Shown here piece by piece: positions 17,499 through 52,862 of a stretch of DNA of 64,000 nucleotides (position 1 is the first letter of the stretch; each line of letters starts with the position of its first letter). Origin of the DNA: Candidatus Schekmanbacteria bacterium (GTDB lineage: Bacteria; Schekmanbacteria; GWA2-38-11; J061). Position numbers and translations under genes: made by a program. Under the pieces are notes generated by a model. That model had not been told where the DNA came from, made no database searches, and worked only from the letters and a program-made list of their open reading frames with translations. The stretch lies in contig JACRJM010000015.1 in NCBI GenBank assembly GCA_016219965.1, forward strand, positions 281,857 through 345,856, in the 5' to 3' direction.

Positions 17499-17504
17499 TA
17501 TAGT
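17499..17504 (+). promoter_or_regulatory. Candidate -10 box giving a leaderless wzx mRNA
   Basis: TATAGT lies with 7 bases between it and the ATG at 17512, so transcription would begin at or next to the start codon. No Shine-Dalgarno is present and the -35 region is weak (GGAATT at 17-base spacing). Confidence 0.4.
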
Positions 17505-17511
17505 AAATCAA

Positions 17512-24287: not shown

Positions 24288-25223
24288 TTATTTTTTTCTC
24301 AGAATCTGCAGTACATCATTCATGTCATCCGGCATCGGTGAGTCGAACTCAAAAGACTTGCCGGTGCGGGGATGAATGAATCTCAGAAAATGTGAATGTA
24401 ATGCCTGGCGTTTGATCTTTATCCCTAAGCTCTGCTCTGATTCCGCAAATCCTTTTCCATAAACAGAATCCCCGATTACAGGACATTTGATGCTTTTAAG
24501 ATGCACTCTTATCTGATGGGTCCGTCCGGTTTTAAGTGTAAGCTCAAGAAGAGCGTGACTTTTAAAGCGTTCAATCACTTTGTAAAAGGTTATGGCTTCC
24601 CTGCCTCCTTCTTTGACAACTGCCATCTTCTTTCTGTCCGTACGGCTTCGTCCGATCATTTTATCTATCTTTCCTTCATCCTGCGGCGGAGTTCCGTGGA
24701 TTATGGCAAAATATTTCCGTGTAAGGGATTTATCTTTTAGCTGTTTTGAAAGATTGATGTGCGCCAGATCATTTTTTGCAACGATCATAAGCCCCGATGT
24801 ATCCTTGTCTAATCTGTGGACGATTCCTGGCCTCAGCTTTCCTCCAATACCGGAAAGATCCTTGCAGTGATGGAGTAGTGCATTTACCAATGTCCCCGTG
24901 TAATTGCCTGCGGCGGGATGGACAACCATGCCGGCAGATTTGTCTATTACAAGCAGGTCTTTATCCTCATATTTAATATTGATTGGTATTTCTTCAGGGA
25001 TTGCAGAAAGCTCGTCCAGCTCGGGAAGCGTTCCTGTTATTATTTCTCCAGCTTTCACCTTATGGCTCATTTTAGATAAAGCCGAGTTTACTTTTATGTC
25101 TCCATTTTTTATGAGACGCTGAATAGCAGCGCGGGAGAGCTCCGGAGCTTTTGAATGTATTAAACTGTCAAGGCGTTCTCCGGTATCTTGGTTTAAAACA
25201 GTGATTTTGATATTTTTATTCAT
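24288..25223 (-). CDS. rluD: RluD-family 23S rRNA pseudouridine synthase
   Basis: The 311-residue protein has an N-terminal S4 RNA-binding domain (RAAIQRLIKNGDIKVN) and the RsuA/RluA catalytic domain: GIVHRLDKDTSGLMIVAK with the catalytic Asp in HRLD, then KTGRTHQIRVHLK and VIGDSVYG. RluD-type enzymes make pseudouridines in helix 69 of 23S rRNA. The match to all canonical motifs makes this the better RluD candidate of the two paralogues in the window. It is convergent with the CbiX-like gene, with a gap of 6 bases. Confidence 0.9.
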   Translation of the reverse strand: MNKNIKITVLNQDTGERLDSLIHSKAPELSRAAIQRLIKNGDIKVNSALSKMSHKVKAGEIITGTLPELDELSAIPEEIPINIKYEDKDLLVIDKSAGMVVHPAAGNYTGTLVNALLHHCKDLSGIGGKLRPGIVHRLDKDTSGLMIVAKNDLAHINLSKQLKDKSLTRKYFAIIHGTPPQDEGKIDKMIGRSRTDRKKMAVVKEGGREAITFYKVIERFKSHALLELTLKTGRTHQIRVHLKSIKCPVIGDSVYGKGFAESEQSLGIKIKRQALHSHFLRFIHPRTGKSFEFDSPMPDDMNDVLQILRKK

Positions 25224-25280
25224 GTAATTAATATAATTAAGAATGTAATTATAAAGCTACTATAATTTAATAGAACGTGT

Positions 25281-25286
25281 TATAAT
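25281..25286 (+). promoter_or_regulatory. -10 box TATAAT giving a likely leaderless mRNA
   Basis: A perfect TATAAT lies 6 bases before the ATG at 25293, so transcription should begin at the start codon. There is no Shine-Dalgarno, and the -35 region at 17-base spacing (TACTAT) is weak. Confidence 0.45.
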
Positions 25287-25292
25287 AAAAAA

Positions 25293-26264
25293 ATGCGTGG
25301 ACTATATTTTGACAAGAACCTGAGTTTTAGAAGCGACCTGCCGCTGCCTGTAGCAGAGAAGGGTACGTCCCTTGTAAAGATTATCAAGGCCGGAATCTGC
25401 AATACTGACATCGAGATAACAAAGGGATATTTGGGATTCGATGGAGTTCCCGGGCATGAGTTTGTAGGGATTGTAGAGGAGTCTTCAAACAGGAAGTTAC
25501 AGGGCAAAAGGGTTGTGGGCGAAATAAACATTCCCTGCGGGAAATGCACATACTGCAGAAAAGAACTGGGCAATCACTGTTCTAAAAGGCAGGTCCTTGG
25601 AATAGCTAATAAATGGGGATGCTTCGCTGAGTATATTACGCTTCCAGATGAAAACCTTCACCTGATCACGAACATAAGCGATGAAGAGGCTGTTTTCGTC
25701 GAGCCTCTTGCAGCATGTCTCGAAGTGCTACGGCAGACAGTAATAAAACCAAATGCAAGAGTCGGGATAATAGGCGACGGCAAACTTGGTTTGTTGATGG
25801 CTCAGGTCATGTTGTTGAAGACCAAGAGCGTAATACTTGTAGGCAAACATAAGGTAAAACTCAATGTAGCTTCAAAGCTTGGAATAAGCACGATTGATAT
25901 AGCTCAGGCTAAACCATTGCAATCTCTGAAAGATAAAAAACTGGATGTATTGATTGACTGTGCGGGAAACACATCAGGCCTTGAAATGGCTATTGAGCTT
26001 GTAAAACCTCGTGGAGTAATAGTTTTAAAAAGCACGGTTGCCAGCTCGTACAATATCAACCTTGCACCTCTGGTGGTTAACGAAGTTACGGTTGTTGGTT
26101 CAAGGTGCGGCCCCTTCGAAGACGCAATCAAGATACTTGCCGGGAAAAAAGTAAAAATATCTCATCTCATCTCGCAAGTATTCCCGCTTTCTCAGGGTGT
26201 AAAGGCCATTGAGGCTGCAAAAGAAAAGAATGTAATAAAGGTACTCATTGATGTAGCAAAGTGA
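25293..26264 (+). CDS. Zinc-dependent medium-chain dehydrogenase/reductase
   Basis: The 323-residue MDR has the catalytic zinc ligands in AGICNTDIE (Cys) and PGHEFVG (His-Glu), the structural zinc loop PCGKCTYCRKELGNHC with four cysteines, and the Rossmann motif VGIIGDGKLGLLMA. It would oxidise an alcohol or polyol with NAD(P). It is shorter than most MDRs (about 340-350). It lies between two convergent RluD paralogues, and a second MDR with the same architecture is at 55.6 kb. The substrate is unknown. Confidence 0.87.
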   Translation: MRGLYFDKNLSFRSDLPLPVAEKGTSLVKIIKAGICNTDIEITKGYLGFDGVPGHEFVGIVEESSNRKLQGKRVVGEINIPCGKCTYCRKELGNHCSKRQVLGIANKWGCFAEYITLPDENLHLITNISDEEAVFVEPLAACLEVLRQTVIKPNARVGIIGDGKLGLLMAQVMLLKTKSVILVGKHKVKLNVASKLGISTIDIAQAKPLQSLKDKKLDVLIDCAGNTSGLEMAIELVKPRGVIVLKSTVASSYNINLAPLVVNEVTVVGSRCGPFEDAIKILAGKKVKISHLISQVFPLSQGVKAIEAAKEKNVIKVLIDVAK

Positions 26265-30784: not shown

Positions 30785-31648
30785 TTATTTCGCAAATGCA
30801 AGTATTATGATTCCTGCAAGCATTATAATGCTGCCTGTCATTCGTTGGGCAAGACCTTTTTCTCCGAAAAAAACAGCGCCGTAAAGAACGCTGAAGATAA
30901 GATTGCTCCTTTTTACTGAAATCATGTAAGCGACTTCCACCATTGATAGCGCAGCAAAGTGAGTAATGATGGATGCAGTATAGACAAATCCTGTTAATGT
31001 TAAAATTAATATTCCACTCTTTATCTCATTGAATATGTTGCTTTTGTTAGTTTTAATAAAAGGGATGAGAAGAATGGGTTGGAGCATGAAATATGTGCAT
31101 CCAAAGAACATGGGGCTTGAATGAGTTATCCCCATCTTACCGAAGTTTGATGTTATGCTATAGAGGAAAGCCACACAAACCATCATCATCACACCTTTAT
31201 CTTTTGTTATTCTTCGAAATGGTTCAAAGAACCCTGTTTTAAGATGGGATATATTAAGCACATATGCCCCACCGGCTATAAGCATTATTCCTGCAATTCC
31301 GGAGAGACCTGTCTTCTCACCGAGCATGAGATATGAAGTCGGGATGAGAAACACAGGTGTAAGCGCAAGAAAGGGAATAGTAAGAGAGAGCGGCGAAATC
31401 TGTATCGATCTCATGTATAGAAGAAGTGCCAATATTTCAATAGGAAGTCCTAAGATTACTGAAGTAAAATAATAACCATCCAGCTTGGGTAATCCGGTCG
31501 CAATCAGCAGAGGAAGAAGAAAGGGGATACAGAAGATGAGCCTTATCCATGATATGAAATAGATGTTGTTTTTTTCGAGTGCTTTTTTTGACAGCGCATC
31601 ACTCGTTGCAGTCAGGAAAGCACAGACAAGCGAAAGAACAAACCACAT
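30785..31648 (-). CDS. DMT/EamA-family permease
   Basis: The 287-residue protein has ten hydrophobic segments in two EamA repeats, with SKKALEKNNIYFISW in the first half and MVEVAYMISVKRSNLIF in the second, and a short GEKGLAQR loop near the end. Such drug/metabolite transporters export small molecules such as amino acids or cofactors across the inner membrane. The substrate cannot be told. It diverges from the DUF763 gene and stands alone on its strand; GGAG lies about 11 bases before the ATG. Confidence 0.85.
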   Translation of the reverse strand: MWFVLSLVCAFLTATSDALSKKALEKNNIYFISWIRLIFCIPFLLPLLIATGLPKLDGYYFTSVILGLPIEILALLLYMRSIQISPLSLTIPFLALTPVFLIPTSYLMLGEKTGLSGIAGIMLIAGGAYVLNISHLKTGFFEPFRRITKDKGVMMMVCVAFLYSITSNFGKMGITHSSPMFFGCTYFMLQPILLIPFIKTNKSNIFNEIKSGILILTLTGFVYTASIITHFAALSMVEVAYMISVKRSNLIFSVLYGAVFFGEKGLAQRMTGSIIMLAGIIILAFAK

Positions 31649-31714
31649 ATTTAAGAGTCTCCATAAAAATTTCAGAATATTGCATTTATCATACTTATCT
31701 GTTACAAAAAAGAC

Positions 31715-32803
31715 ATGAAAACCGGAACAGCCAATTTACCGCTTCACGGAGGGAAAGCTCCAGCCTGGCTTTTTAACAGGATGGTAAAGCTTGCCGGAGC
31801 AGTGATTGAAATAATAGCTGAAGACAGCGGGCCGGAAGAGGTGTTACGGAAGATATCTGATCCTTTCTGGTTTCAGGCGCTTGGGTGCATACTGGGTTTT
31901 GACTGGCATTCAAGCGGTGTCACTACCACTGTTTGCGGCGCCATGAAGGAATCAATGAAGGGGAAAGAAAGGGCATTAGGATTGTTTATAGCAGGAGGTA
32001 AGGGGGGAGCTTCAAGAAAGACTCCTAAAGAGATTGAAAATGCTGCGATGCGCACAGGCTGCGACGGCGGCTCTCTTGTCTATGCAAGCCGGATGTCTGC
32101 AAAGGTTGACAGCTCTGCGGTACAGGATGGCTACCAGCTCTATCATCACTGTTTTTTCTTCACTGTAAACGGCAAATGGGCGGTTGTCCAGCAGGGGATG
32201 AATGATGACAATGGCTATGCGCGCCGTTACCACTGGTTTTCGGAGAAAGTTGCAGACTTTGTGGAAGAGCCTCACACAGCGATATGCTGTGATGACAGGA
32301 GGGAAGCACTTGACATGACTGCAAAGCAGAGCGAAGGTGCAAGGAGCTCTTCATCGCGCCTTTCCTGCGAAGACCCTGCGTTCTGGTTAAAGGAGACTGA
32401 AAAGCTTAGAAGCCTTAACCTTCCGGCAAGGCACCAGATTTTAAAGGAAGATATAAGCTCAAGATATTTTTCGCAGATTATGCTTAAAACTTACGAAGCA
32501 AGACCGGCAAATTTTGAAAAACTCCTTTCAATGGAAGGAGTGGGACCAAAGACAATACGTTCACTTAGTCTTTTGAGCGAACTTTTATTTGGTGAAAAAG
32601 CAAGCTATGATGATCCTGCCCGGTTTAGCTTTGCACATGGCGGCAAGGACAGGATACCATACCCCGTTGACAGGGAGACCTATGACCGCACGACGGAAAT
32701 ATTAAACGGCTGGATAGGACGCGCAAAGGTTGATACTACCGAGAAAGTAAAGGCATCAGAAAGATTGAAGAGATTTTTAAAACCACAATTAAAAATCGTT
32801 TAA
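31715..32803 (+). CDS. DUF763 family protein
   Basis: The 362 residues match DUF763, opening with TGTANLPLHGGKAPAWLF, then FQALGCILGFDWHSSGVTT, RKTPKEIE and HHCFFFTVNGKWAVVQQGMN. A helix-hairpin-helix-like LLSMEGVGPKTIRSL lies near residue 275, which suggests nucleic-acid contact. The family is common in archaea and thermophilic or anaerobic bacteria and has no assigned function. No Shine-Dalgarno precedes the ATG; TACAAA 6 bases upstream and a weak TTGCAT could make a leaderless promoter. Enolase follows after 16 bases. Confidence 0.85.
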   Translation: MKTGTANLPLHGGKAPAWLFNRMVKLAGAVIEIIAEDSGPEEVLRKISDPFWFQALGCILGFDWHSSGVTTTVCGAMKESMKGKERALGLFIAGGKGGASRKTPKEIENAAMRTGCDGGSLVYASRMSAKVDSSAVQDGYQLYHHCFFFTVNGKWAVVQQGMNDDNGYARRYHWFSEKVADFVEEPHTAICCDDRREALDMTAKQSEGARSSSSRLSCEDPAFWLKETEKLRSLNLPARHQILKEDISSRYFSQIMLKTYEARPANFEKLLSMEGVGPKTIRSLSLLSELLFGEKASYDDPARFSFAHGGKDRIPYPVDRETYDRTTEILNGWIGRAKVDTTEKVKASERLKRFLKPQLKIV

Positions 32804-39337: not shown

Positions 39338-39366
39338 TTGACATGACACCAACTAGATGTTATAAA
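39338..39366 (+). promoter_or_regulatory. Consensus sigma70 promoter, leaderless or near-leaderless start
   Basis: TTGACA (39338-39343), a 17-base spacer and TATAAA (39361-39366) match the sigma70 consensus almost fully. Six bases (AAAAGT) separate the -10 box from the ATG at 39373, so transcription should begin at that codon. Confidence 0.75.
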
Positions 39367-39372
39367 AAAAGT

Positions 39373-40086
39373 ATGCAGTCCCGTATAAAAAAAATCATTA
39401 TTATTCTGTTTGTAAGTCTATTTATAAATCTGGGATGTTTTATCTTCACCGGGCTTTCCAATGCTGTTATTTATAAAATAATAAATTCTGACGGCTCCAT
39501 ACACTTTACCGATGATCCCTATAATGGCGCTGCCAGTGGAGCTGTACGGAAAGCAGTTTATAAATCATCTTCATATACACCCAAATATACTTCCAAAGTG
39601 CTCAGCAATGCCTATTCCAGCGTTATTGATGAGGTTGCCCAGAAGTACAATCATGATCCAAAGCTGATAAAGAGCATAATCAAGCATGAATCCAATTTTG
39701 ACCCGGAAGCAGTTTCAAACAAGGGGGCAGTAGGTCTTATGCAGCTTATGCCTGACACTGCTTCGAGGTTTGGAGTGACTGATACATTCGATCCCAAGCA
39801 GAATATCGAAGGGGGCGCTGCTTATCTTGATTACCTTATGAAGCACTTCGAAGGGGACCTTCCGTTAGTGATTGCGGCATATAATGCAGGGGAGGGAGCA
39901 GTACAGAAGTACAGCGGGATTCCCCCTTACAATGAAACACAGGAATTCGTCGGAAGAGTGCTCGGAACGTATACCGGCTCAGGGGATATATCAGCATCCG
40001 GTTCAAAAACAAAAAGCACAACACGGGCTTCAAGGACGCGTTTAGTCAAAAAAAATGATGGTTCGATAATGATTACAAACCGTTAA
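39373..40086 (+). CDS. Exported lytic murein transglycosylase (DUF4124 + SLT domain)
   Basis: The 237-residue protein has a signal peptide (IIIILFVSLFINLGCF), a short DUF4124 module (YKIINSDGSIHFTDDP) and a goose-type SLT domain: SIIKHESNFDPEAVSNKGAVG with the catalytic Glu, GLMQLMPDTA and IAAYNAGEGAVQKY. It cleaves peptidoglycan to anhydromuropeptides in the periplasm. An earlier in-frame ATG (39343) lies inside the promoter, so 39373 was chosen. A tail rich in Ser, Thr and Lys follows the domain. Confidence 0.87.
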   Translation: MQSRIKKIIIILFVSLFINLGCFIFTGLSNAVIYKIINSDGSIHFTDDPYNGAASGAVRKAVYKSSSYTPKYTSKVLSNAYSSVIDEVAQKYNHDPKLIKSIIKHESNFDPEAVSNKGAVGLMQLMPDTASRFGVTDTFDPKQNIEGGAAYLDYLMKHFEGDLPLVIAAYNAGEGAVQKYSGIPPYNETQEFVGRVLGTYTGSGDISASGSKTKSTTRASRTRLVKKNDGSIMITNR

Positions 40087-41961: not shown

Positions 41962-42013
41962 TTGACGGCGCTGAATAATCTCTTATACTTTCTTTCTATC
42001 TATACATATCAGG

Positions 42014-42042
42014 TTGAACCTGCCATCCTTTTGAGCTATTAC
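42014..42042 (+). promoter_or_regulatory. Candidate leaderless promoter of the TIGR03960-type gene
   Basis: TTGAAC (42014-42019), a 17-base spacer and TATTAC (42037-42042) form a sigma70-like pair. Seven bases separate the -10 box from the ATG at 42050, and no Shine-Dalgarno is present. Confidence 0.55.
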
Positions 42043-42049
42043 AATCTTC

Positions 42050-44653
42050 ATGAATAAAAGAATTATAGACTGCCTAAACTCAGTTCAAAAACCCACACGC
42101 TATACCGGTGGGGAACTTGGCTCTATTGTCAAATCAAAGGAAGAAGTGGAGCTGACATTTGCCCTCGTGTTCCCCGAGGTCTATGAGCTTGGGGTTTCGA
42201 ACCTCGGGCTGCGCATACTTTACAGCATCCTTAACAAGATGAAGGGTGTGCAGGCAGAGAGAGTTTATTCTCCGTGGGTTGACATGGAGGAGATTATGCG
42301 GCGCGAAGGTTTTTCACCCTTCGGTCTTGAAACAGGAATGCCTCTCGGGGATTTTGACATAGTAGGTTTTTCACTTCAGTACGAGCTTCTTTATACAAAT
42401 ATCCTGAATATCCTAGAGCTTTCCGGCATACCTCTTAAAGCCTCTGAAAGAGATGAAAGATTCCCGCTCATAATAGGCGGAGGTCCATGCGCATTCAATC
42501 CAGAGCCTCTCGCAGATTTCTTCGATGCTTTTTTTATCGGCGATGGCGAGGAAGGTATAGTTGACATTGTTAATGTTTTTAACATTTGGAAGAAAGATGA
42601 GAAGAGAGATAAAAGAAAGCTCCTTAAAGCCATAAGCGGTATTGACGGAGTCTATGTCCCGTCATTTTATGAGGTCAACTACAATGATGACGGCACGATT
42701 AAATCCATAATTAATAAGGAAGGGGAGCAGTCAGCGCAAATCCGCAAAAGAAGCATTCTTTCTCTTATGTCTTCTCATAATCCGGCAAAAACCATAATTC
42801 CTTTCTGCGAGGCTGTGCATGACAGAGTGAACATCGAAATCGGTAGAGGATGCTCTGCCGGATGCAGATTCTGCCAGGCAGGCATTATATACAGGCCTGT
42901 CCGTGAACGGAGTGCTCTGGACGTAATAGCTCTTGCTGATGAAAGTATAAAAGAAACAGGGTACGAAGAGGTGGCGCTTACAAGCCTGAACGTGGCAGAT
43001 TATCCATATATAGAGGATGTGGTTACCAGACTGATTGCCATGATGGAGGAGAAAAGGGTTTCTGTGTCGCTTCCATCTTTAAGGGCAACACTTCTGAAGA
43101 ACGGGAAAATCGCTGAAGAGATCGCAAAGGTAAGAAAGACAGGTTTTACCATTGCGCCTGAAGCAGGGTCACAGAGGCTTCGCGATGTCATAAACAAAGG
43201 AATAACAGAAGAAGAGATCCTTGAATCCGTTGAGAGTGCTTTTTCAAAGGGGTGGAGGGCGGTGAAACTCTACTTCATGATATCCCTTCCAACGGAAACT
43301 GAGAAAGACATTGAAGAGATAGCAGGTCTTGTGAACAGGATTATGAAAATTATAAAGACAGCAGGAAAAAGGATAAAAAGGATTTCCGTTTCAATATCCC
43401 CCTTTGTCCCAAAGGCACATACCCCATTTCAATGGACAGGAATGGAAGACAGGGCAGATATCGAACATAAGATAAGGATGCTTCAGGCAATGCTCAAAAG
43501 AGGGAGTGTTGACCTTGAATGGCATGACTCTACTTCAAGCCTTGTGGAAGGGGCAATGGCAAGAGGCGACAGAAGGACGGGAGACGCGATATTAAGGGCA
43601 TTCCGCATGGGGGCGAGGTTTGACGGATGGCGGGACTTTTTTAATTTCAGTATTTGGGAAAAGGCTTTTGCTAGCTCAGGACTCAGTATGGAGTTCTACG
43701 CCAGGAGGGTCAGGCATGAGGATGAGATATTCCCGTGGGAACATATTGACTGCGGTGTAAAAAAGAAATTCCTGTCAGATGAATATGCGGCGTCGTTGAA
43801 AGAGGAAAAAACAGTTGATTGCAGGTTTGGAAGATGCAATTCCTGCGGCTTTGAGAAAGAGTGCGCAGATATAAGGCAAATAAATCAGATGACCACAGAG
43901 GGCACAGAGAAAGAACAGAAGAAAGACGGAGGAGATGCAAAAAAGGTATCGCACTTTAAAGCTTCAGACAGGGAGAGATTTTTCTACAGGATAAAGTATT
44001 CAAAAAAAGGGAATATGCGGTTTATCTCGCATCGTGAATTTCAGAAGATGTTCAGCAGGGTGCTTGCACGTGCGGAAATGCCTATAGAATATTCAGATGG
44101 ATTTAATCCTCATCCTTCTATTGCATATGGTATGCCGCTTTCTGTGGGAGTCGAGTCTGAATGTGAATATATTGATATCGAGCTTTTGCATGATATGGGA
44201 TTGCCGGAAATTATGGAAAAGCTAAACAGCGAACTTCCCTCCGGATTCATGGTAACTGATGTGGAAAAAATGCAGAGTCTTAAGTCTTCTCTTCAGGCAA
44301 GCGTCAGACAGTTTATTTACTATGTGGTGTTCGGAACTGAGATGCTGCAAAAGGAAAAACTTTCTATTGAAACAGTCCATGAAAAAATCAGGCTATTTGA
44401 GGAAAGTGAACGATTCAATGTTGTCAGAGATACCGGTAAAAAAAAGTCCGACATAGATCTTAGAGAGTTTGTAAGCTTTCTTAAAAGCCCCGGAGAAAAC
44501 AGAGACGGTTCAGTGAACCTGTCCATAAGTGTTGATGTCAAAAACGGAGTTGCCCCTGCAATATACCTTGTTTTATGCTCGGTCTTCGGGTTATCGTTTC
44601 CATTGCCTAAAGGCATTCAGGTCGTCAGGAAACAGGTTGCCTTATCCATCTAA
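42050..44653 (+). CDS. TIGR03960-family B12-binding-like radical SAM protein fused to a TIGR03936/DUF2344 domain
   Basis: The 867-residue protein has a B12-binding-like N-terminus (EVYELGVSNLGLRILYSILN; GGGPCAFNPEPLADFF), a radical SAM core with GRGCSAGCRFCQAG (CX3CX2C, about residue 270) and GFTIAPEAGSQRLRDVINKG, and from about residue 645 a DUF2344 domain (YRIKYSKKGNMRFISHREFQ; YSDGFNPHPSIAYGMPL). The two parts are often adjacent genes; here they are fused. The family often lies beside rng and is thought to act on RNA or ribosomes; its reaction is unknown to me. Confidence 0.9.
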   Translation: MNKRIIDCLNSVQKPTRYTGGELGSIVKSKEEVELTFALVFPEVYELGVSNLGLRILYSILNKMKGVQAERVYSPWVDMEEIMRREGFSPFGLETGMPLGDFDIVGFSLQYELLYTNILNILELSGIPLKASERDERFPLIIGGGPCAFNPEPLADFFDAFFIGDGEEGIVDIVNVFNIWKKDEKRDKRKLLKAISGIDGVYVPSFYEVNYNDDGTIKSIINKEGEQSAQIRKRSILSLMSSHNPAKTIIPFCEAVHDRVNIEIGRGCSAGCRFCQAGIIYRPVRERSALDVIALADESIKETGYEEVALTSLNVADYPYIEDVVTRLIAMMEEKRVSVSLPSLRATLLKNGKIAEEIAKVRKTGFTIAPEAGSQRLRDVINKGITEEEILESVESAFSKGWRAVKLYFMISLPTETEKDIEEIAGLVNRIMKIIKTAGKRIKRISVSISPFVPKAHTPFQWTGMEDRADIEHKIRMLQAMLKRGSVDLEWHDSTSSLVEGAMARGDRRTGDAILRAFRMGARFDGWRDFFNFSIWEKAFASSGLSMEFYARRVRHEDEIFPWEHIDCGVKKKFLSDEYAASLKEEKTVDCRFGRCNSCGFEKECADIRQINQMTTEGTEKEQKKDGGDAKKVSHFKASDRERFFYRIKYSKKGNMRFISHREFQKMFSRVLARAEMPIEYSDGFNPHPSIAYGMPLSVGVESECEYIDIELLHDMGLPEIMEKLNSELPSGFMVTDVEKMQSLKSSLQASVRQFIYYVVFGTEMLQKEKLSIETVHEKIRLFEESERFNVVRDTGKKKSDIDLREFVSFLKSPGENRDGSVNLSISVDVKNGVAPAIYLVLCSVFGLSFPLPKGIQVVRKQVALSI

Positions 44654-51526: not shown

Positions 51527-51556
51527 TTGACTTGGAGGCGACCTCTCCTGTATAAA
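51527..51556 (+). promoter_or_regulatory. Promoter of the LarA-like gene cluster with palindrome in the spacer
   Basis: TTGACT (51527-51532), 18 bases and TATAAA (51551-51556) precede the ATG at 51567 by 10 bases, so the leader would be 0-4 bases. The spacer holds GAGG-CGA-CCTC (51535-51545), which could be a short operator. No Shine-Dalgarno is seen. Confidence 0.6.
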
Positions 51557-51566
51557 AATAATCCTT

Positions 51567-52862
51567 ATGAATATAAAATTTTTATCAGGAACGAAGCCGC
51601 AGGGGCTGTATAGCGAAAAACTCCCCAGATTCATTGATATAGTCTGCGATTTTAAGAGACCAAAGGTTCCTAATATAGAGGACTCCTTGAGGAAGAATAT
51701 CCTCTCACTCGCTTCTCTAAAAAAACTTCCTAAAGGCGCATCTGTCGGAATAACGGCAGGAAGCCGCGGAATAAGCGGATATTGTGACATTCTTAAGATT
51801 GCAGGCGAGCTTCTTCGCTCGCAGGGATTAAAACCTTTTGCAATCCCTGCAATGGGAAGCCACGGAGGAGGAACTGCGGAAGGGAGAAGAGAGATACTGA
51901 AAGGAATGGGTATTACGGAAAAGTCATGCGGCATACCAATAAGGGGAGGAGATAGCTATGTTAAGATAGGCACTCTTCCCAACGGCATTACAGTTTATAC
52001 CGACAGGGAAGCGCTTGGTGCTGACGGAATAATAATCTTTAACAGGATAAAGCCTCACACTGATTTCGAGGGTACGCATGAGAGTGGGCTGCTCAAGATG
52101 ACGGCAGTCGGTCTTGGAGGACCTCAGGGAGCTGCCCAGATACACAGCATGGGAATCAAAGGACTAAAAGAATGCATAATCCCGGCTGCAAAAAAAATCT
52201 TTTCAGCCATTCATCTTATGGCAGGTCTCGGAATAGTTGAAAACAGCGCCGGTGAGACAGCGATTATAAAAGCCTTTGAAGCAGATGAGATAATTGACGG
52301 AGAAAAGAAGCTCCTAAAGATTGCAAAAAAACTTCATCCTTCTTTACCTGCCGGCAACATTGACCTCCTTGTTGTTGACCGCATGGGAAAAGAGATAAGC
52401 GGGACAGGGATGGACACGCATGTGATAGGCAGGAAGGTGATTCGTTTTGAACATGAGAGTGAAAAGCCGCGTATAACAAGGATTGTAGTTTTAGATCTTA
52501 CACGGCAGTCGAAGGGGAATGCTGCGGGGCTTGCGCTTGCTGACATAATAACTGAGAGATTTTTCAAGAAAATAGATTTTGATGCCTTTTATTTTAATGC
52601 CATAACTTCAACATTCATTGACAGGGGGAAGATCCCTGTTGTGGTTAAAAACGACCGTGAGGCCTTTGCTCTTGCTATAAAATCAGCATGGGTAAGAGCT
52701 CCGGAAAGGGCAAGGATTATCAGAATAAAAGATACTCTGAGCTTAGAACGCATGTCGGTTTCAGAGGATGTGTACCGTTCAATTGCTGGAAATAAATCTA
52801 TTTCAAAAAAAGGTGGTTTTTATAATTTAAGATTTGATGCACGGGGAAATCTGGTAAGATAG
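51567..52862 (+). CDS. LarA-like (DUF2088-related) protein, possible nickel-pincer epimerase
   Basis: The 431-residue protein has features of the lactate racemase superfamily: GASVGITAGSRGISGY near residue 60, FAIPAMGSHGGGTAEGRREI (about 91-110), GIIIFNRIKPHTDFEG with His, and a C-terminal half with TGMDTHVIGRK. LarA enzymes use a covalent nickel-pincer nucleotide to racemise 2-hydroxy acids. The match is to the superfamily, not to LarA itself, so the substrate is open. It starts a four-gene forward cluster with an aminotransferase, a sugar kinase and a dehydrogenase. larB, larC and larE maturation genes are not in the window. Confidence 0.65.
   Translation: MNIKFLSGTKPQGLYSEKLPRFIDIVCDFKRPKVPNIEDSLRKNILSLASLKKLPKGASVGITAGSRGISGYCDILKIAGELLRSQGLKPFAIPAMGSHGGGTAEGRREILKGMGITEKSCGIPIRGGDSYVKIGTLPNGITVYTDREALGADGIIIFNRIKPHTDFEGTHESGLLKMTAVGLGGPQGAAQIHSMGIKGLKECIIPAAKKIFSAIHLMAGLGIVENSAGETAIIKAFEADEIIDGEKKLLKIAKKLHPSLPAGNIDLLVVDRMGKEISGTGMDTHVIGRKVIRFEHESEKPRITRIVVLDLTRQSKGNAAGLALADIITERFFKKIDFDAFYFNAITSTFIDRGKIPVVVKNDREAFALAIKSAWVRAPERARIIRIKDTLSLERMSVSEDVYRSIAGNKSISKKGGFYNLRFDARGNLVR

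Follow-up and report, generated by a model that had tools for sequence, protein, structure and literature searches.

Promoters at leaderless spacing precede a minority of first genes in a sparsely sampled bacterial lineage

In the Candidatus Schekmanbacteria genome investigated in this study, promoters of the sigma70 type very likely place a minority of first genes, including those starting at positions 39373 and 51567 of the window, in a leaderless or near-leaderless class that exists alongside a leadered majority, to which the gene at 42050 more likely belongs. This interpretation draws on the observed promoter grammar, its position, the absence of Shine-Dalgarno (SD) sites, the preference for ATG and the conservation of the arrangement at 39373, from which we infer where the transcripts begin and how they are translated. 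It revises a first-pass annotation of the same DNA, which was based on six -10-like boxes close to start codons: the phenomenon described there is real, whereas the criterion was too loose to serve as proof, the frequency was overstated and the class was named after a weaker example.

Methods

The window is the whole 64,000-nucleotide stretch of DNA that was analysed (G000:C15:281857-345856), located in a genome of 3.58 Mb in 18 contigs. Genome-scale counts refer to 2.42 Mb of joined stretches, equivalent to 68% of this one genome, where genes and starts were assigned by our own caller, so that some starts are wrong. The caller is a periodic Markov model and makes no use of upstream signals. 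As first genes we counted 1006 genes that are either divergent or separated by 60 nt or more from a preceding codirectional gene; another 690 genes were classified as operon-internal. A two-box sigma70 model was learned from the 2.42 Mb with the 20 bases immediately preceding every start hidden. Expectation-maximization (EM) seeded with the sigma70 consensus led to the canonical dyad TTGACA-17-TATAAT, both with these bases visible and with them hidden. Promoters were counted at an LLR of at least 5.5 with dinucleotide shuffles as null, and SD sites at a value of at least 4. Among the 40 relatives searched, only three share the order of this genome (G001, which is of the same family, and G002 and G003, which are of the same order), the others being classified as 'same domain', and the lineage is thus sparsely sampled. 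The 3' end of the 16S rRNA carries the canonical GGATCACCTCCTTT, and initiation by SD interactions is therefore available. The 16S rRNA gene itself is divided over two contigs (G000:C7:20-908 and G000:C17:45791-46453), probably by an assembly break.

Results

The distribution of promoters upstream of first genes reveals a distinct class next to the start codon. In 29 of the 1006 first genes, a promoter above threshold has its -10 box ending 6-11 bases before the start, compared to 3.1±1.7 in shuffles, whereas the flanking bins are close to the shuffle level (5 vs 2.8 at 0-5 and 3 vs 2.8 at 12-17). When counted in 6-nt bins outward from the start codon (5, 29, 3, 7, 23, 30, 27, 29 and onward, with about 3 in each bin of the shuffles), the profile has two modes, the class at 6-11 and a hump of leadered promoters that begins at 24, separated by a trough at 12-23. 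The same feature is evident in the promoter mass assigned by the blind model to spacers 6-10, which amounts to 35.4 compared to 11.5±1.8 in shuffles (maximum 16.1). The sharp lower edge at 6 nt is expected if transcription must begin at or before the ATG.

The -10 box alone hardly reveals this class. Among SD-less first genes starting with ATG, 25.6% contain a hexamer starting with TA and matching TATAAT in at least four of six positions at spacers 6-10, and the same loose criterion is satisfied in 18-25% in other 5-base windows, so that a -10-like hexamer 6-10 bases before the ATG of an SD-less gene barely exceeds chance. Similarly, the frequency of TAnnnT per position is 4.03% at spacers 6-10 compared to 3.70% at 20-59, and counts of -10 hexamers alone show no clear positional peak across the first genes sampled. 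The positional peak that the first-pass annotation had anticipated over many genes thus emerges once a -35 box is required but not from the -10 box by itself, and in an AT-rich genome such as this a two-box promoter model is needed for the leaderless class to become visible. As controls, a Deinococcus deserti plasmid analysed with the same gene caller shows TAnnnT in 3.4% per position at 6-10 compared to 0.58%, an approximately six-fold enrichment, and the -10 profile of Escherichia coli shows no enrichment at 6-10. The comparison with both controls rests on this -10 profile, as they contain too few detectable promoters for the two-box model.

The excess near the start of about 26 promoters compared to about 202 leadered ones assigns to the class about 11% of identifiable promoters and, at an LLR of at least 5.5, about 3% of first genes, which does not support the previous suggestion that first genes would often be leaderless. 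That a large share of operon first genes in the lineage is leaderless is compatible with the real positional peak and with the incomplete detection of promoters, which exceed the threshold in only about a quarter of first genes so that some leaderless genes must escape notice. Still, in light of the small fractions obtained and the near absence of a peak of the -10 box alone, compared to its pronounced enrichment in D. deserti, we regard such a large share as very improbable and favor a small minority. Most SD-less first genes with a recognizable promoter are leadered; for those starting with ATG the numbers are about 100 compared to 28, where wrong start calls inflate the leadered figure. Initiation without SD on leadered mRNAs is thus a larger unexplained class than the leaderless one. 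The notion that good ribosome sites are the rule for operon-internal genes holds only in part, since SD sites precede 52% of operon-internal genes compared to 42% of first genes and 15% in a null region.

The members of the 6-11 class share properties beyond spacing. Their start codon is ATG in 28 of 29 cases, and none of the 29 has an SD site compared to 92 of 166 leadered genes (p=2e-9), a contrast that partly follows from the overlap of a -10 box at this distance with the bases of the SD test, an overlap that affects neither the ATG preference nor the trough. The promoter mass at 6-11 is concentrated at SD-less ATG starts (36.8), with little at SD-led ATG (2.2) and GTG or TTG starts (1.0). 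Leaderless mRNAs predict such a confinement to first genes with an SD-less ATG start. A peak is absent at 6-11 with wrong dyad spacings, at operon-internal starts (2/690) and, at leaderless spacing, at downstream in-frame ATGs (1/372). Intergenic ATGs that are not starts carry such a promoter in 1.2% of cases compared to 2.9% of true starts.

All six boxes of the first-pass annotation are present at the described distances (TTGAAC-17-TATTAC-7-ATG42050, TTGACA-17-TATAAA-6-ATG39373, TTGACT-18-TATAAA-10-ATG51567, TATAAT-6-ATG25293, TATAGT-7-ATG17512 and TACAAA-6-ATG31715), and the SD test confirmed that none of the six genes has an SD site. As promoters they differ, with those at 39373 and 51567 passing the threshold, the one at 31715 being weak, the one at 42050 outscored by an upstream element and those at 25293 and 17512 lacking a -35 box. 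The genes at 39373 and 51567 are solid predicted members of the leaderless class in the window:

39338..39372, + strand: predicted leaderless promoter with -35 box TTGACA (39338-39343), 17-nt spacer, extended -10 TGtTATAAA (TATAAA at 39361-39366) and 6 nt to ATG (LLR 8.4, posterior 0.97, blind model)
39373..40086, + strand: lytic transglycosylase with SLT domain, predicted leaderless ORF (Pfam PF01464, 3.7e-33)
51527..51566, + strand: predicted near-leaderless promoter with TTGACT (51527-51532), 18 nt, TATAAA (51551-51556) and 10 nt to ATG (LLR 7.1, posterior 0.87)
51567..52862, + strand: nickel-pincer-cofactor isomerase group 22, predicted near-leaderless with a leader of about 3-4 nt (NCBIfam NF052515, 4.1e-140)

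At 39373, the arrangement TTGACA-17-TGnTAtnnA-5/6-ATG is retained in each of the four genomes examined from the order, at a protein identity of about 50%. The LLR of 8.4 found here is paralleled by values of 8.7 in G001 (spacer 6), 7.9 in G002 (spacer 5) and 8.5 in G003 (spacer 5), and the four promoters share the boxes, the TGn and the spacing but differ in the letters of the spacer. The hydrophobic N-terminus of the protein, an export segment, resembles those of its orthologues in the four genomes compared and supports ATG39373 as start. In G002 and G003 (L187, L189), the aligned start of the orthologues is preceded by an extra in-frame ATG that falls within the conserved promoter. The hydrophobic N-termini also argue against the idea of real promoters combined with misassigned ATGs, in which case the true starts would be located downstream and the genes ordinarily leadered. 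Although starts are computational calls and some genes contain downstream in-frame ATGs, the latter lack a peak at leaderless spacing, and neither the sharp onset at 6 nt nor the restriction to SD-less ATG starts would be expected, which makes this explanation very unlikely compared to the leaderless reading.

In other genes, the geometry is less constant. The promoter of 51567 is located 10 nt from the ATG here, 12 nt in G001 (LLR 7.1) and 17 nt in G003 (LLR 7.1), and the length of its leader thus drifts. A spacer of 8 is kept for MurJ in the sister genus G001, and the leaderless geometry is not kept in orthologues of Lnt, an MFS transporter and an AAA-DUF4143 protein, with the MFS transporter gene of the sister genus being SD-led. 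The spacing profile of G002 contains little signal in a weakly powered 375-kb sample.

The remaining boxes next to start codons are less convincing, with the one at 31715 residing in a short divergent gap:

31680..31714, + strand: TTGCAT-17-TACAAA-6-ATG, a possible leaderless promoter within a divergent gap of 66 nt (LLR 2.7, posterior 0.15, no better rival upstream)
31715..32803, + strand: DUF763 protein, possibly leaderless (Pfam PF05559, 3.9e-133)
25278..25292, + strand: extended -10 TGTTATAAT, 6 nt before ATG25293, without -35; the gene product is a relative of zinc-type alcohol dehydrogenases
17499..17511, + strand: TATAGT, spaced 7 nt from the first of three ATGs in tandem, without -35 and without TGn

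The TATAGT preceding 17512 is likely a chance match. The SD test of this gene used the start of the caller, which is the third of the three ATGs (17518), and a profile search with its protein found no family match. That AT-rich intergenic DNA produced all six boxes by chance, as might be suspected from the near-background yield of the loose criterion and from four of the six having no convincing two-box promoter adjoining the ATG, is highly improbable in light of the excess of 29 over 3.1 in shuffles, its confinement to SD-less ATG starts and the conservation at 39373 in four genomes.

The gene at 42050, which had been put forward as leaderless example, is preceded by two candidate promoters:

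42014..42049, + strand: ATG-adjacent element TTGAAC-17-TATTAC-7, weak (LLR 3.9, posterior 0.02)
41962..41989, + strand: stronger upstream promoter TTGACG-16-TATACT (LLR 7.6, posterior 0.77), predicted leader of about 53 nt
42050..44653, + strand: TIGR03960/TIGR03936 fused B12-binding radical SAM protein, SD-less and probably leadered (NCBIfam TIGR03960, 3.7e-230)

The ATG-proximal element was rejected as the best and conserved promoter of this gene, since it is outscored by the one 60 nt upstream and not kept in relatives, where none of three orthologues has an ATG-proximal promoter above an LLR of 5.5. In G003, the best promoter is found 45 nt upstream (LLR 8.7), compared to 60 nt here. The gene is thus probably not an example of the class and is more likely transcribed with a leader from TTGACG-16-TATACT.

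Discussion

The described features suggest a mechanism where a housekeeping polymerase of the sigma70 type, recognizing TTGACA-17-TATAAT, would transcribe the genome and where, in a minority of first genes, the promoter would be placed with its -10 box ending 6-11 nt before the ATG. RNA synthesis would consequently begin with the A of the start codon or a few nucleotides earlier, and the ribosome would engage the 5'-terminal or near-terminal AUG without SD. This class might comprise some tens of genes, about one tenth of identifiable promoters. Judged from the geometry of 39373 kept in four genomes, it is conceivable, albeit doubtful, that the leaderless start of particular genes is a selected, long-standing property of the lineage rather than a result of drift, perhaps for translation when SD-dependent initiation is impaired. 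The gene and its orthologues offer a clean test for leaderlessness. Leaderless mRNAs are reported to be spared by kasugamycin.

Leaderless mRNAs are already well known from several bacterial phyla, and what is new here is their prediction for a sparsely sampled lineage; a literature search on candidate-phylum and uncultured bacteria found nothing. TA-led leaderless genes have been predicted on the basis of a TANNNT -10 box located about 10-12 bp upstream of the start, in a survey that found leaderless genes in bacteria to be widespread although not dominant (Zheng et al., 2011; PMC3160421). Our class resembles these genes in its signal and position, in lacking SD sites and in being a minority restricted to first genes, but differs in a -10 box that hardly rises above the AT-rich background, with the -35 box needed to see the class, and in the sparse sampling of the lineage. 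In D. deserti, for which 1174 leaderless mRNAs are cited in PMC5243855, the -10 box is likewise located 6-10 nt before SD-less starts, but the class is large there and a small minority here. Leptospira interrogans, with about 440 leaderless or short-leader mRNAs with a UTR below 10 nt (PMC5243855), similarly combines short or absent 5' UTRs with leadered genes within one bacterium, but its transcripts were mapped by dRNA-seq, whereas ours are predicted and fewer. Modelling of ATG-proximal promoters would improve the annotation of start sites in such genomes.

A further feature concerns divergent gaps, which are shorter for leaderless candidates (median 125 vs 205 nt, p=0.001). Since the room upstream of the -35 box is not significantly different (p=0.11), geometry may explain this difference, and the idea that short gaps impose leaderless starts was set aside. 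In the window, divergent gaps of 69 nt (25223-25293) and 66 nt (31648-31715) must each house two promoters. Elsewhere in the genome, strong back-to-back promoters at leaderless spacing for both members are found between the genes of an MFS transporter and a radical SAM protein (gap 105 nt, G000:C15:216343-218952, L012) and between those of an aminotransferase and Lnt (gap 84 nt, G000:C1:54499-57252, L034).
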